DNA of 42,036 bases from Methanosarcina sp. DH2 (GTDB lineage Archaea > Halobacteriota > Methanosarcinia > Methanosarcinales > Methanosarcinaceae): assembly GCF_020804225.1 (NCBI RefSeq), contig NZ_WJBI01000001.1, positions 653,280 through 695,315 on the forward strand, written 5' to 3'. Shown here in pieces: positions 31,007 to 37,505 of this stretch; position 1 is the first letter of the stretch, and each line of letters opens with the position of its first letter. Both the position numbers and the translations under genes were made by a program. Below the pieces are notes generated by a model. The model was not told the origin of the DNA, did no database searches, and saw only the letters and a program-made list of their open reading frames with translations.

Positions 31007-31169
31007 CTGCGGTAGAATTTTCAGAAAACTTTTCAATTTCAGGATAAATTCCGGAATAAGCAGGCAAATTTTGTTGACGGATATTTTTAAATAGTATTGC
31101 ATCATCTCGAATACCATACGTTTGTTGATTTTGCATCAGTCAGAATTCTAACTGTCTGTATCTTTACAA

Positions 31170-31193
31170 TTGAAATTTCATTTATACTAAATT
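31170..31193. promoter_or_regulatory. 24-bp site shared by both MarR promoters (copy 1)
   Basis: The reverse complement of this 24-bp stretch matches 35154-35177 at 22 of 24 positions. Both end exactly 36 bp before the MarR-type coding start (31230 and 35214). Here it reads TTGAAATTTCATTTATACTA followed by AATT, and overlaps the likely TATA box (TTATACTA). A shared operator for autoregulation is the natural inference. Confidence 0.55.
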
Positions 31194-31229
31194 ATCACCA
31201 GTTCTTGCTCGTAAATCCCTGGAGGAAAC

Positions 31230-31715
31230 ATGGACCCTGAATGCGCTAAAAAAGTGAGGCTAATGGATCTTGAATTCCGAACGCTTCACAATAAATTATT
31301 TGAAGATCGGTTTTTTCAAAAAGTAGCCGCCTCTCAAAACTCCGAACTCAAGGAACTTAACAAAAACCAGCCTCTCGTTATCATGATAATTGGATTGGTA
31401 AAGGAAATCATGCCTTCTACTATCGGAACGTATGTGGGAATGGACAGGAGTAGCCTTTCACGAATGGTGGATTCCCTGGAAGAGAAAGGATTTGTCAGGA
31501 GAAAAAACGATCCTGAAGACCGGAGAAAAGTCCTTATTTCCCTGACCGAAAAAGGAGAGCGGTGTTATGATTTCCTTAATAGAAAATCTGAGGAGATGGC
31601 TACCGAAATCCTTGGGTTGGTTGAAGAGCAGGATTTGAGGGATTTCGAAAAAGGTCTTGAAACAATGCTGCGAGTCCTGAGAAAAATCGATTCTGTAATG
31701 GAAAGTAGAAAATAA
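31230..31715 (+). CDS. MarR-family winged-helix regulator, first cassette
   Basis: Transcription regulator of 161 residues. The winged helix-turn-helix reads MPSTIGTYVGMDRSSLSRMVDSLEEKGFVRR (in parts), with the wing KNDPEDRRKVLISLTEKGE typical of MarR. Flanking helices should form the dimer. GGAGG lies four bases before the ATG. It is paralogous to the protein at 35214 (NKNQP, EIMPST, DRRKVL and ETMLRVLRKID segments match). A short TrmB-like gene and an RND permease follow, so it probably controls efflux and its own promoter through the 24-bp site. The ligand is unknown. Confidence 0.88.
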   Translation: MDPECAKKVRLMDLEFRTLHNKLFEDRFFQKVAASQNSELKELNKNQPLVIMIIGLVKEIMPSTIGTYVGMDRSSLSRMVDSLEEKGFVRRKNDPEDRRKVLISLTEKGERCYDFLNRKSEEMATEILGLVEEQDLRDFEKGLETMLRVLRKIDSVMESRK

Positions 31716-31819
31716 GCAGGGAGCCGGAAGTCTCGAAGCCCCGGAGTCAATAATAACCGGAATTAACGTCGAATCAATATAGGACTTTCATTTTTAGCTT
31801 TTTTTCCTGAGGAAAAAGC

Positions 31820-32170
31820 ATGACCCTGAAATTGATCAATAACCTTCAGAAACTTGGCTTTACGGAAAATGAGGCCAAGATCTATGCCACCCTTGTTTGT
31901 ATGAAAACGGCAACTGCAAGGGAAATCTATGAAACAAGCGGGGTTCCCAGACCCAAGGTGTACAAAGTTTTGAGAGGGATGGAAGAGAAAGGATACGTAC
32001 AGATAACTGAAGGGGAACCGATTCATTTCAGTTGCATACGTCCGGAGGAACTGATCTCAAGAATCAGAGCTAATTTTTTGCTTTCTCTGGATGAAACCTT
32101 CTGTGGACTCCATGCTTTAAGCCTTAAAATGAAGCCCTGTCTTCAGGAGAATCTGCAGGACTGGGGATGA
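31820..32170 (+). CDS. Short TrmB-like winged-helix protein, first cassette
   Basis: DNA-binding protein of 116 residues with the TrmB/Sugar-specific-regulator type N-terminal winged helix: LQKLGFTENEAKIYATLVC, then REIYETSGVPRPKVYKVLRG and MEEKGYVQITEGEP. A full TrmB has a C-terminal sugar-binding domain of more than 150 residues, which is absent. GAGG precedes the ATG. It is 104 bp after the MarR gene and is a clear paralogue of the protein at 35879. It may act together with the MarR protein on the permease gene. Confidence 0.82.
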   Translation: MTLKLINNLQKLGFTENEAKIYATLVCMKTATAREIYETSGVPRPKVYKVLRGMEEKGYVQITEGEPIHFSCIRPEELISRIRANFLLSLDETFCGLHALSLKMKPCLQENLQDWG

Positions 32171-32378
32171 AGTGTTAAAAAGAATTCAGCGCATTTTTTC
32201 AGGTTCTGCTCAGGATATTTTGCAGCAAAACCAATGCCTGTTAGCTGCTGCTTTGGTAATGTTTGTCCCGTGGCTGTCCTGAGTAATATAAAATGAAGTG
32301 GATGAAAAACAAACTTGATTGAAAACTTGATTGAAAAACAGACTCAACTAAAAACAAGTCTCCTAAGGGGGATTCCTT

Positions 32379-34730
32379 ATAAAAAACATCTTTGAAAAAC
32401 TAGGACTTTTTGTTCTGAACAACCGTGCAGTCATACTGGCTGTCGTACTTATGCTGGTTCTGCTATCCTTGCAGGGAGCCCAATACATCGAAATGGCATC
32501 CGGAACCGAGACTCAGGTGTCGAAGGATTCGCAGCTGTATAAGGACTATAACCACCTTTTCCTGAACACCTTCAGTACAGAGAGCATCGTTTTGATGGTC
32601 GAGGGAAATGATGTGAAAACCGAAGCCCTCGCAAAAGCCTCCGACAGGCTGGAGCAGCAAGCTATGATGGTTCCCGGAGTCACCAAGGTTTCAAGCGCTG
32701 CATCCATCCTGAAGCAAATTAACTATGCTGAGTCCGGAAGGTCAAATGTTCCGGATTCTGACCGGGAGGTCCGGGAGATGATGGAGAGTTACCCGGAATA
32801 TTTCGAGAGCCTGGTGATTGATGAGACCCACATGCTCACAGTTATCCAGATCGAAGGAAGCAGTACGAGCCAGCAGCAGAAAGACATTATCAATAATATA
32901 GAAATCTCATTAAAAGAATCTGAATTTCCCCCTGGCTACAAATTGACTCTCACAGGCAGGCCTTCGCTGGTGCTTGACATTGAAAGTGAAATGGGAACAA
33001 GTATGGGCATGCTGCTCGGGATCGCCGGAATCCTTATGGTAGTCGTCCTTCTCCTTGTTTTCAAGCATGTCAGATGGGGACTGCTTCCGCTTCCTGTTGT
33101 GTTGCTTGGAGTCCTTTTTACTTTTGGGGTCATGGGATACCTCGACGTGCCAATGACAATGGTTTCCATGGCAGCTTTTCCGATACTGATCGGTCTCGGA
33201 ATTGATTATTCCATCCAGTTCCACAACCGAATGGAAGAGGAAATCCAGAGAGGCAATACTTCTTCGCAGGCCCTTGTCTCTACGATCAAGAACACCGCAC
33301 CTGCCGTACTGGTTGCCCTTATAATGACAGCGCTTGGTTTTGTTGCGCTTTTTACTTCAGTTGTCCCCATGATCCAGGACTTCGGAAAACTCCTGCTCAT
33401 CGGTGTTATCATGTGTTACCTTTCTTCGCTCTTTTTCGGGCTGGTTACTCTTTACAGTTTTGACTGGATCTCCAGAAAAAATCCTTATGGGCTGTTTAAG
33501 AAGAAAGGGGAAGAAAAGGGTAAAGCAGGTAAAAACGGCAAAAATGGACCCGGAGCAATTGAAAATATTCTGAAAAAACTCACAGGTCTTACCCTCAAAT
33601 ATTCTACCTTGATTCTTGTAATTTCCTTCTTGACCTGCTGTGCCGGGCTTTATGCTGATCAGTCAATTCCCATCCAGACTGATACTAACTCTATGATTCC
33701 ACAGGACATGCCTTCCCTTATCAACTACAAAAACATGCAGAGTCTCCTGTCGGGATCCGGAGACCACCTTAATATTATCCTGAAAGTCGATGATGCAAGT
33801 AATCCGGAACTGCTGGAATGGATGGATGAGTTTTCCCAGCATGAAGTTGAAAACAGAGGGCATATTTACAGTGCTTCAAGCATAGTGGACCTCGTAAAGG
33901 AACGAAACGGCGGGACAATCCCCGCGACCTCTGGAGAAATACAGGCAATATACAATGAAATTCCGGAAAGTCAAAAGCAGGAATACATCGAAGGAAACCA
34001 GTTGCTTCATATTAACCTGGACATCGGGACTGCTATGGCAGATCTTGAAATTACGGGAATTGAGGAGCTTCGAGATATTGTCCTGACAGACGTCCAGTGG
34101 ATGCAGCCGCCTCCTGGAGTTTCTGTTACGGTTACAGGCAGCTCGGTAGTTACCATTGATATGGTTTCCGGGCTTACAACAGGCCGAAGTCAGATGACCC
34201 TGCTCGGGGTTCTCCTTGTATTTGTGGGCCTCCTGATTGTTTACAGGGATATCGTAAAGGCTCTTTCTCCCATTATCCCCATGCTGGTCGTAATCGGCTG
34301 GTCAGGTCTTGTAATGTCGGCCCTGAATATTGCATACAACCCTATGACTGCAGTTATGGGCTCTCTGATTCTTGGAGTCGGGTCCGAATATTCAATTCTG
34401 ATGATGGAGCGTTATTTTGAGGAAAGGGATGCCGGAATGAGTCCTGTGAATGCCATATATCAGGCCTCGTCTACTACAGGCACAGCTCTTATTGCTTCGG
34501 GAGCTACAACTGTATTTGGGTTTTCAGCCCTGATCGCTTCGCCATTCCCGATGATGAGTAGTTTCGGACTGATTACGGTAATAGATGTCCTCCTCGCAAT
34601 GGTTGTAACCTTTGTGATCTTCCCGCCTCTTATCGTCCTGATGGACAGTTATCGGGGAAAGAAGCTGGGAATTTTTGAGAGATTACAGGATTTAAGGAAA
34701 AAGCATCTGACCGGACCTATCAATACATGA
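32379..34730 (+). CDS. RND-superfamily (HAE3/MMPL-type) permease, apparent AUA start
   Basis: Large membrane exporter of about 783 residues with two repeats of six helices and two extracytoplasmic loops. Marks are LPVVLLGVLFTFGVMGYL, ILIGLGIDYSIQFHNRMEEE in repeat one and LILGVGSEYSILMMERYFEE in repeat two, plus two short linkers. The first ATG is at 32451, inside the first helix. The conserved N-terminus (KNIFEKLGLFVLNNRAVILA) lies upstream in frame and no ATG, GTG or TTG exists between a TAA at 32364-32366 and 32451. AAGGGGGA at 32365-32372 stands six bases before an ATA at 32379. I therefore place the start there. It probably moves hydrophobic compounds or lipids and follows its two regulators. 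Confidence 0.85.
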   Translation: MKNIFEKLGLFVLNNRAVILAVVLMLVLLSLQGAQYIEMASGTETQVSKDSQLYKDYNHLFLNTFSTESIVLMVEGNDVKTEALAKASDRLEQQAMMVPGVTKVSSAASILKQINYAESGRSNVPDSDREVREMMESYPEYFESLVIDETHMLTVIQIEGSSTSQQQKDIINNIEISLKESEFPPGYKLTLTGRPSLVLDIESEMGTSMGMLLGIAGILMVVVLLLVFKHVRWGLLPLPVVLLGVLFTFGVMGYLDVPMTMVSMAAFPILIGLGIDYSIQFHNRMEEEIQRGNTSSQALVSTIKNTAPAVLVALIMTALGFVALFTSVVPMIQDFGKLLLIGVIMCYLSSLFFGLVTLYSFDWISRKNPYGLFKKKGEEKGKAGKNGKNGPGAIENILKKLTGLTLKYSTLILVISFLTCCAGLYADQSIPIQTDTNSMIPQDMPSLINYKNMQSLLSGSGDHLNIILKVDDASNPELLEWMDEFSQHEVENRGHIYSASSIVDLVKERNGGTIPATSGEIQAIYNEIPESQKQEYIEGNQLLHINLDIGTAMADLEITGIEELRDIVLTDVQWMQPPPGVSVTVTGSSVVTIDMVSGLTTGRSQMTLLGVLLVFVGLLIVYRDIVKALSPIIPMLVVIGWSGLVMSALNIAYNPMTAVMGSLILGVGSEYSILMMERYFEERDAGMSPVNAIYQASSTTGTALIASGATTVFGFSALIASPFPMMSSFGLITVIDVLLAMVVTFVIFPPLIVLMDSYRGKKLGIFERLQDLRKKHLTGPINT

Positions 34731-34779
34731 GTAAGCAGGATCTGGATAAAATTGTACGGTCTGGAGAGAGAAAAATAGC

Positions 34780-34953
34780 ATGAACTCAAGGTTACTTGAT
34801 CTATGGGACTTTACTAAGAGCACACAGGTCCCTGGAAAAAATACGACTCAGGCTCTCTCTCCCCTATTTCTCTTTTCCCTGAATGACATGTTTGGGAGCT
34901 GGGCAGATACAGATTCGTATCTCCAAATGAGATATAATTGCATCCGGTATTAA
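34780..34953 (+). CDS. Possible 57-residue unknown protein (weak)
   Basis: A frame of 57 residues (MNSRLLDLWDFTKSTQVPGK and on) starts 49 bp after the RND gene, with GGAGAGAG 10 bases before the ATG. It has no motif, helix or homologue I recognise, and may be chance. The remaining gap up to 35153 shows nothing else coding. Confidence 0.2.
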   Translation: MNSRLLDLWDFTKSTQVPGKNTTQALSPLFLFSLNDMFGSWADTDSYLQMRYNCIRY

Positions 34954-35153
34954 TCAGACAGGATTTCTTAATTAAGCCCAGGCTTACTCCCTTGCTCTTG
35001 TCATACTCGATGCAGGCGCAAGATCTTTTCCAGAAAGAGGAAGAAAGAACAAGAATAAAATATTATTTTTAAGCTTAGTTTGAGAAAGTATCGGAATATT
35101 TATATGCCATCAGATATTAGTTGAGTTATCAACCATACAAATGTCAATTATTC

Positions 35154-35177
35154 AATTTAGTATAATTGAAAATTCAA
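35154..35177. promoter_or_regulatory. 24-bp site shared by both MarR promoters (copy 2)
   Basis: Inverted relative to the copy at 31170-31193, with 22 of 24 positions matching. It overlaps an inverted repeat TTCAATT-TAGTAT-AATTGAA (35151-35170), as expected for a dimeric winged-helix protein. It ends 36 bp before the second MarR gene. Confidence 0.55.
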
Positions 35178-35213: not shown

Positions 35214-35750
35214 ATGGGCCAGTTTTTTAGGGAAAGGGCTCAGAAGGATCCGAAAGATCCGCAAAAAGGGATGATTAAAGAAATGGATGAGGCAACATTG
35301 AGTAAAATAATCCTTCTGTCAATGGAAAGAGATGCTCTCGATAACCTGATTTTTGAGCAGACCTTTCAGAAAAAAATTGCAGGCAAGTTCAGGGAACTGA
35401 GCAAGAACCAGCCAATGGTAATTAAAATCATAGGGACAGAAGGAGAAATTATGCCTTCTACTCTTGGAAAATACACAGGAATGGAAAAGAGCAGTTTAAC
35501 GAGGATGGTTGACGACCTTGAAAAGAAAGGGGTTGTGTTCAGGAAGACCGACCCTGGTGACAGGAGAAAGGTGCTCGTTTCCCTTACCGAAAAAGGGCTT
35601 GATTATTATAATTGTTTAAACCGGATTACCACTGAAATGGCTGATGAAATCCTTCAGTTTGTGGATAATAAGGACGTTGAGGATTATATGCATAGCCTCG
35701 AGACCATGGTAAAAATCCTGCGGAAAATTGATTTCAGCCGGACTGCCTGA
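35214..35750 (+). CDS. MarR-family winged-helix regulator, second cassette
   Basis: Paralogue of the MarR-type protein at 31230. The frame from 35214 gives 178 residues; a start at 35271 or 35283 would make the N-terminus match the first paralogue in length, and no ATG has a good ribosome site. The HTH reads MPSTLGKYTGMEKSSLTRMV and the wing KTDPGDRRKVLVSLTEKG. The C-terminal dimer helix ETMVKILRKIDF matches the first copy. A 24-bp site shared with the first copy lies 36 bp before 35214. It is followed by a TrmB-like gene and an AI-2E-type permease. Confidence 0.86.
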   Translation: MGQFFRERAQKDPKDPQKGMIKEMDEATLSKIILLSMERDALDNLIFEQTFQKKIAGKFRELSKNQPMVIKIIGTEGEIMPSTLGKYTGMEKSSLTRMVDDLEKKGVVFRKTDPGDRRKVLVSLTEKGLDYYNCLNRITTEMADEILQFVDNKDVEDYMHSLETMVKILRKIDFSRTA

Positions 35751-35878: not shown

Positions 35879-36238
35879 ATGACTCTTAAGCTTGTTGAGA
35901 ACCTTCAGAAACTGGGTTTTACAGGCAACGAAGCCAAAATTTATGCATCACTTATCTGCCTGAGGCAGGCAAAAGCCAGTGAAATTGCTGAAAATGCTGG
36001 AGTTCCGAGACCCAAGATCTATGGAACCCTTAGAGGAATGGAGAAAAAAGGCTACATCAGGATAATCGAAGGCGAACCAACCCTTTTTTGCTGCATCCAG
36101 CCAGAAAAGCTAATTTTAAGGATAAGGGCAGACTTTATGCTTTCTTTAAGTGAAACCGCCAGTGAACTGAATTCCCTGACTCCTGGAAGTAATAACTTTG
36201 CTTCAGAACGTTTCTATGGGGAAAGGGTAAGGGCCTGA
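35879..36238 (+). CDS. Short TrmB-like winged-helix protein, second cassette
   Basis: DNA-binding protein of 119 residues, paralogous to the protein at 31820: MTLKLVENLQKLGFTGNEAK, then EIAENAGVPRPKIYGTLRGM and KKGYIRIIEGEP. Only the TrmB winged helix is present and the effector domain is missing, as in the first copy. GGAGG lies 7 bases before the ATG. It starts 128 bp after the second MarR gene. The cassette order MarR, TrmB-like, transporter repeats that at 31230-34730. Confidence 0.82.
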   Translation: MTLKLVENLQKLGFTGNEAKIYASLICLRQAKASEIAENAGVPRPKIYGTLRGMEKKGYIRIIEGEPTLFCCIQPEKLILRIRADFMLSLSETASELNSLTPGSNNFASERFYGERVRA

Positions 36239-36456: not shown

Positions 36457-37505
36457 ATGCCTCTCAGTACCAACAGGAACATATGGCAGTTTCCGGCATT
36501 AACAACTATACTTTTCACGTTTTTTTTTGCAATACTTTTCTATTTTGAGGACATTTTCATAGTCCTCATAGCAGGTGCAATCCTTATCTTGATTACGGAA
36601 AAAGTTATAAAAGCATTCAACAGGTGCATGAACAGGTTTCCGAACTGCAATCGAAGGTAGTGAGTCTAATCCTGCTTACAGGTGCAGGGCTTGCTTTCCT
36701 GTTTCTTCTGGGCAGTCAGGTCCAGAGCCTTGGAGTCCTTATAGGGGATTTCAGCATACAGCAGGACTACGCAAGCGGAGCTTCAGCCCTTTTTTCAGAA
36801 CACGAGTCCGAGCTTTCAAAACTTGTGGATTCCGGAGTTATTAAACCTCAGGATCTGCAAAAAATAGGAAATACTATTTTTTCAGGGATTGCCGATCTTG
36901 TTTCGAAGGCATCTTATTATTTTTTTACCGGCATATTGATAATTCCTCTCATGTTTGGTGTATACTTCAAGCACCATAATAAAATAGGGAACTACATTCA
37001 GTACTACGCTCCTCCTGAACATGCGGATGGAATTGTCAGGGCCTTAAAAAGTATAGGCCGTGAGCTTGAGGATTTCTTCAGTGCTAAAATGCTTGAGTCT
37101 GCTATTATCGGTCTGATTTGCTGTATAGGGTTTTATCTGGCAGGTATTGACGGGTGGCTTTTCCTGGGCATCCTGGCAGGTTTTCTAAATATTATTCCTT
37201 ATATTGGCCCTCTTCTGGGGGCAATCCCTCCTGTTATCGTGGGTTATATCGCCAGTCCGATGACAGCTCTCCTTGCAGTGATAACGGTTATTATTGCCCA
37301 GCTAATTGACAACCTTTACCTCATTCCATTCATGATCTCGGAAAAAGTGAATATTAACCCGCTTTTAAGTGTGGTTTTAACACTTGCCGCCTCCAAGCTC
37401 CTGGGCCCCCTCGGCATGGTACTCGCAATCCCTATATACATTGTATACAAAATAATTATTAAAGAGTCTTATAGGGAACTAGTAAATATATATTATGAAG
37501 ATTAA
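36457..37505 (+). pseudogene. AI-2E/PerM-family permease split by a frameshift
   Basis: Two overlapping frames make up one AI-2E (PerM) family membrane protein. The first (36457-36660) starts after GGTAGGA and encodes the first two helices to CMNRFPNCNRR, where TAG and TGA follow. The second frame (-1 relative to the first) continues at about 36640 with SKVVSLILLTGAGLAFLFLL and carries the rest, including the family's LAGFLNIIPYIGPLLGAIPP and AQLIDNLYLIPFMISEKVNI. The natural join lies at about 36645-36660 (AATCGAAGGTAGTG). A one-base change, a sequencing error or a programmed shift are all possible. The second part alone would lack the first helices. Exported substrates in this family are diverse. 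Confidence 0.75.

Follow-up and report, generated by a model that had tools for sequence, protein, structure and literature searches.

A phased array of 12-bp dyads as the predicted autoregulatory operator of two marR genes in Methanosarcina

Operators have been described for few archaeal MarR regulators, and literature searches found no published study of the regulators described here in Methanosarcina. Of the closest described systems, the MarR family member SCO3205 of Streptomyces has operators with the consensus TTnAAnnnTCAA, which include TTGAACTCTCAA; it is reported to bind with a nanomolar KD and a 24-bp footprint (PMC3737563). MexR of Pseudomonas aeruginosa binds GTTGA-N5-TCAAC at the operators PI and PII (PMC9892617). 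Here, we analyzed a window of 42,036 nucleotides from Methanosarcina sp. DH2 (contig NZ_WJBI01000001.1, positions 653,280 to 695,315), in which the leaders of two marR genes share a 24-bp site.

The two marR genes and their start codons

The gene marR1 (31230..31715, +) encodes a MarR-family regulator of 161 aa (Pfam MarR, 7.9e-13); its start is conserved in orthologues and preceded by a strong ribosome-binding site, GGAGG. It is followed by a TrmB-type HTH gene (31820..32170, +; Pfam TrmB, 5.5e-26) and by the gene of an MMPL/RND-type membrane exporter (32451..34730, +; Pfam MMPL, 1.5e-54), which probably belongs to the same operon. The exporter's coding region probably begins farther upstream than the ATG at 32451 (32370-32451), the N-terminus being 20–40 residues longer in relatives. 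The second regulator gene, marR2 (35283..35750, +; 155 aa), is also followed by a TrmB-type HTH gene (35879..36238, +; Pfam TrmB, 9.4e-24). After this comes an AI-2E family transporter gene (36457-37505) in two frames of 67 and 293 aa, about 4 nt short; relatives have an intact ORF of 350 aa, and the split appears to be a frameshift or an assembly error.

That the gene next to the predicted operator encodes a MarR-family protein according to Pfam is as expected of a MarR autoregulatory operator. Instead of MarR, the array could be bound by another regulator such as the TrmB-type HTH protein encoded alongside, a TrmB-type gene being found after each marR and adjoining it in the relatives examined. 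We consider this unlikely, as the dyad described below fits MarR operators for which footprint and crystal-structure evidence exists.

The original prediction placed the ends of both 24-mer copies exactly 36 bp upstream of the coding starts, whereas the gaps are 36 bp for marR1 and 105 bp for marR2. In BLASTP, Met1 of the marR1 product pairs with residue 24 of the ORF that begins at 35214, which corresponds to the ATG at 35283. In nearly all orthologues, in-frame stops occur upstream of the MDEATL start, mostly at most 10 codons away, and the N-terminal extension from 35214 would therefore be non-coding. Judged from these alignments, marR2 almost certainly starts at 35283, with the ATG at 35214 most likely unused. 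The distances had seemed identical because the coding start of marR2 had been set at the first ATG of its ORF (35214). A site fixed relative to the start codon was rejected in view of the corrected marR2 start and the variable distance to the ATG in orthologues: measured from the last dyad of the marR2 leader, dyad C, this distance is 88–114 bp in nearly all of them and 222 bp in one, and the array of G012 lies much farther upstream of the ATG than in other genomes.

The shared 24-mer and the two leaders

The 24-mer match itself is real, with 22 of 24 bases identical between 31170-31193 (+) and 35154-35177 (−), and the second copy is indeed overlapped by a perfect inverted repeat, TTCAATT-N6-AATTGAA (35151-35170). 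Apart from the marR1/marR2 pair, no copy with up to three mismatches was found in the 4.6-Mb genome. A chance resemblance of AT-rich DNA is nevertheless conceivable in principle, single dyads being common (3 in the window versus 1.8 expected), and some of the bases shared in the right half of the 24-mer may agree by accident. As an explanation of the whole match, chance is scarcely credible and is contradicted for the dyad core: the pair is unique in the genome, the spacing is conserved, and the top 24-mer agreement between the two leaders is 22, while pairs of shuffled leaders (n = 60) reached at most 18.

The 24-bp unit was, on the other hand, ruled out as a conserved element, since, among marR1 orthologues, its right half is preserved only in the sister species G007. 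The left half, here called C', is kept before the marR1 orthologues. The flank TTATACTAAATT lies directly 3' of C' in this lineage; agreement with it is 9/12 in G007 and just 3–5/12 in the remaining marR1 orthologues, and the flank is absent from marR1 of G001, L069, L071, and G022. What makes the inverted match possible is the symmetry of the dyad, together with the presence of this flank 3' of C' in the lineage. The 24-mer match is only the conspicuous part of a larger element.

In the marR2 leader, this element comprises three dyads of the form TTGA-N4-TCAA, called A, B, and C, at offsets 0, 15, and 45. A putative TATA box, TTTATAT (35099..35105, +), is followed by the predicted operator dyad A (TTGAGTTATCAA; 35121..35132, +), which lies over the expected transcription start at an offset invariant in orthologues. 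Dyad B (TACAAATGTCAA; 35136..35147, +) is degenerate, most orthologues having TTGANNNNTCAA at +15. Lattice position +30, midway between B and C, holds a weak site with no clear dyad (TTCAATTTAGTA; 35151..35162, +), and the predicted dyad C (TTGAAAATTCAA; 35166..35177, +) lies 45 bp after A, within the second 24-mer. The comparison of marR2 leaders covered 21 orthologues and a closely related paralogue in G008 (about 22 sequences). The offsets 0/15/45 are kept throughout this set, although in some species one of the dyads is degenerate, and the A–C spacing is 45 in every intact orthologue. The TATA box is conserved as well, and dyad A starts about 20–23 bp after its start, which places the predicted operator at a near-fixed distance from the predicted TATA box. 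The array lies within the predicted 5' leader, as it would if the leader worked as RNA, through hairpins or a riboswitch. This is very improbable, as sequence conservation extends to both arms of A and C, with few signs of compensatory change; an Rfam search gave no match for the leader.

Two further observations concern the marR2 leaders. The 18-bp B–C segment is inverted in L016, L017, L021, and L024 relative to L015 and L018-L020, that of L016 being the exact reverse complement of that of L015, and the tree requires at least two changes. Perhaps these are hairpin-templated micro-inversions between inverted repeats. In addition, a contig filed under the Bacteroidales MAG Chersky.15_30 (L080) carries a Methanosarcina-type marR2 with a degenerate operator and is probably a contaminating contig.

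The two promoters had been described as otherwise unrelated, which was not borne out by a sequence-only profile built solely from marR2 leaders and searched against the own genome. The best match outside marR2 was the marR1 leader (31082-31180; 17.2–17.3 bits, with a modest E of 0.02), which is co-linear with the marR2 leaders, in the same orientation, and with the TATA box aligned. The natural alignment of both leaders is therefore direct. For comparison, the profile also gave 1e-4 for an unrelated coding repeat of another genome. No convincing additional site, as part of a wider regulon, was found with it in the own genome, and a stronger stray match in L104 was rejected as a regulon site because it lies inside a coding repeat.

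The putative TATA box of marR1, TTTAAATA (31086..31093, +), is identical in all marR1 orthologues but that of L070. It is followed by the predicted operator unit A' (TTGATTTTGCAT; 31125..31136, +), which is conserved in orthologues and pairs with dyad A in the profile search, and, 45 bp after A', by the predicted unit C' (TTGAAATTTCAT; 31170..31181, +), with 10–11 of its 12 bases preserved in marR1 orthologues. A degenerate unit D' (TACTAAATTATC; 31185..31196, +), 15 bp after C', stands in lattice register in orthologues, and in G001 the same position holds the dyad TTGAAATGTCAA. With TTTATACT about 40 bp upstream of the marR1 ATG, the first 24-mer could also be taken for a core promoter element with TTTATACTA as TATA box. 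We regard this as quite improbable, as the candidate box, unlike TTTAAATA at 31086, is not conserved in orthologues.

Array length, conservation, and specificity

Set out in rows of 15 letters, the leaders of the marR1 orthologues reveal a tandem structure with a degenerate unit of 15 bp. On average over the leaders of marR1 and marR2, lag 15 ranks first; in the marR1 leader of the window alone, the periodicity at this lag is borderline (p 0.05). The A'–C' distances in marR1 orthologues are 45, 45, 60, 60, and 150 bp, and 43 bp in G007, whose array is 2 bp off the lattice; between orthologues, the marR1 array changes in length mostly in 15-bp steps. The array of G009 is weak. The marR1 leader of Methanosarcina sp. 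KYL-1 (L036:2384-2524) contains 9.5 near-perfect copies of a 15-bp repeat, ATCTGTATACTAACT, within the A'–C' stretch and in register with the operator lattice.

Lack of conservation in front of orthologues or frequent occurrence elsewhere would have spoken against the original prediction, and both checks came out for it. The dyad array is conserved across about 22 Methanosarcina marR2 orthologues. Nor is the motif frequent at unrelated places: the genome has no further copy of the 24-mer with up to three mismatches, and among the 31 genomes of the genus zero-mismatch A–B or A–C patterns occur only before marR2 orthologues. The search for A–B with one mismatch in the same genomes found the marR1 leader of G001, alongside some unrelated places. 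Within the genus, intact arrays are restricted to these marR genes. Beyond it, zero-mismatch A–B matches were found in two genomes of genus g6, but they lie beside unrelated genes and were rejected. Downstream of their TATA boxes, the more distant MarR paralogues (45–49%) have other sites, TTGT...TCAA, of only loose similarity. In its sequence and spacing, the predicted operator is conserved before the orthologues and specific to marR leaders, with the exception of L070 marR1, whose leader is of another kind and lacks the array.

The shared element could exist for mutual regulation of marR1 and marR2. The same type of dyad stands before both genes, the recognition helices of their products are nearly identical, and the 22/24 match including the flank is found in a lineage that carries both genes. 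Such cross-talk is a real possibility, though short of an even one on the sequence evidence: about 18 genomes that have only marR2 of the two genes retain the array, as do genomes that have only marR1 (e.g., G022), and the flank behind the striking match is missing from the four marR1 leaders named above. As the array is kept in genomes with a single paralogue, autoregulation would suffice, and cross-regulation would be possible but optional.

The proposed mechanism and its known counterparts

We favor, at a probability of roughly 0.78, the phased dyad array as the operator through which each MarR would autorepress its own operon, with dimers over the start site. The evidence strongly supports the prediction that both paralogues are preceded by a conserved operator, but its unit is a 12-bp dyad, placed on a 15-bp lattice that is anchored to the TATA box, instead of a 24-mer fixed to the start codon. 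The TTGA-N4-TCAA dyads would extend on this lattice from about 20–24 bp after the TATA box into the 5' leader, the start of the lattice coinciding with the expected transcription start of each marR gene. A MarR dimer would bind each dyad as SCO3205 binds TTnAAnnnTCAA, and dimers on neighboring sites 15 bp apart would sit on roughly opposite faces of the helix. Jointly and perhaps cooperatively, they would shield the start site from RNA polymerase, and each MarR would thus repress its own putative operon, marR1-trmB-MMPL exporter or marR2-trmB-AI-2E/ABC transporters, until a ligand or stress signal releases the dimers.

The 15-bp step is smaller than the reported footprint of a MarR dimer and therefore makes a direct prediction on how several dimers share the helix: with footprints of 22–24 bp at a 15-bp spacing, the putative dimers would have to interleave. 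Between species, the copy number ranges from 4 lattice positions in marR2 to about 12 in KYL-1 marR1. It is a tentative and rather doubtful suggestion that the array grows and shrinks by 15-bp units, is bound by interleaved dimers or a filament, and tunes repression by its copy number. The operator prediction as such is precise and testable, with its near-fixed phasing to the TATA box, in the genetically tractable Methanosarcina.

A single-sequence PDB search with MarR2 gave one sequence below 1e-8, at 2e-9, that of the entries 2eb7 and 3gfi. These are presumably ST1710 of Sulfolobus tokodaii, an archaeal MarR with solved structures, which was compared with MarR2 by protein sequence. The dyad symmetry is of the MarR type, TTGA-N4-TCAA fitting the SCO3205 form and differing from that of MexR by one spacer base. 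Like the marR leaders, SCO3205 has a 12-bp TTGA-N4-TCAA dyad (TTGAACTCTCAA) before its own gene, and its operators, too, were discovered by comparison of orthologues; in contrast, the available portion of the publication describes two separate sites at a bacterial promoter and reports no 15-bp array (PMC3737563). MexR differs from the marR dyads in its spacer of 5 instead of 4 and in having no array, but its half-sites are nearly identical to theirs and it has two sites (PMC9892617). MexR controls itself and an RND pump (PMC9892617), and marR1, too, has an RND-type exporter gene nearby.
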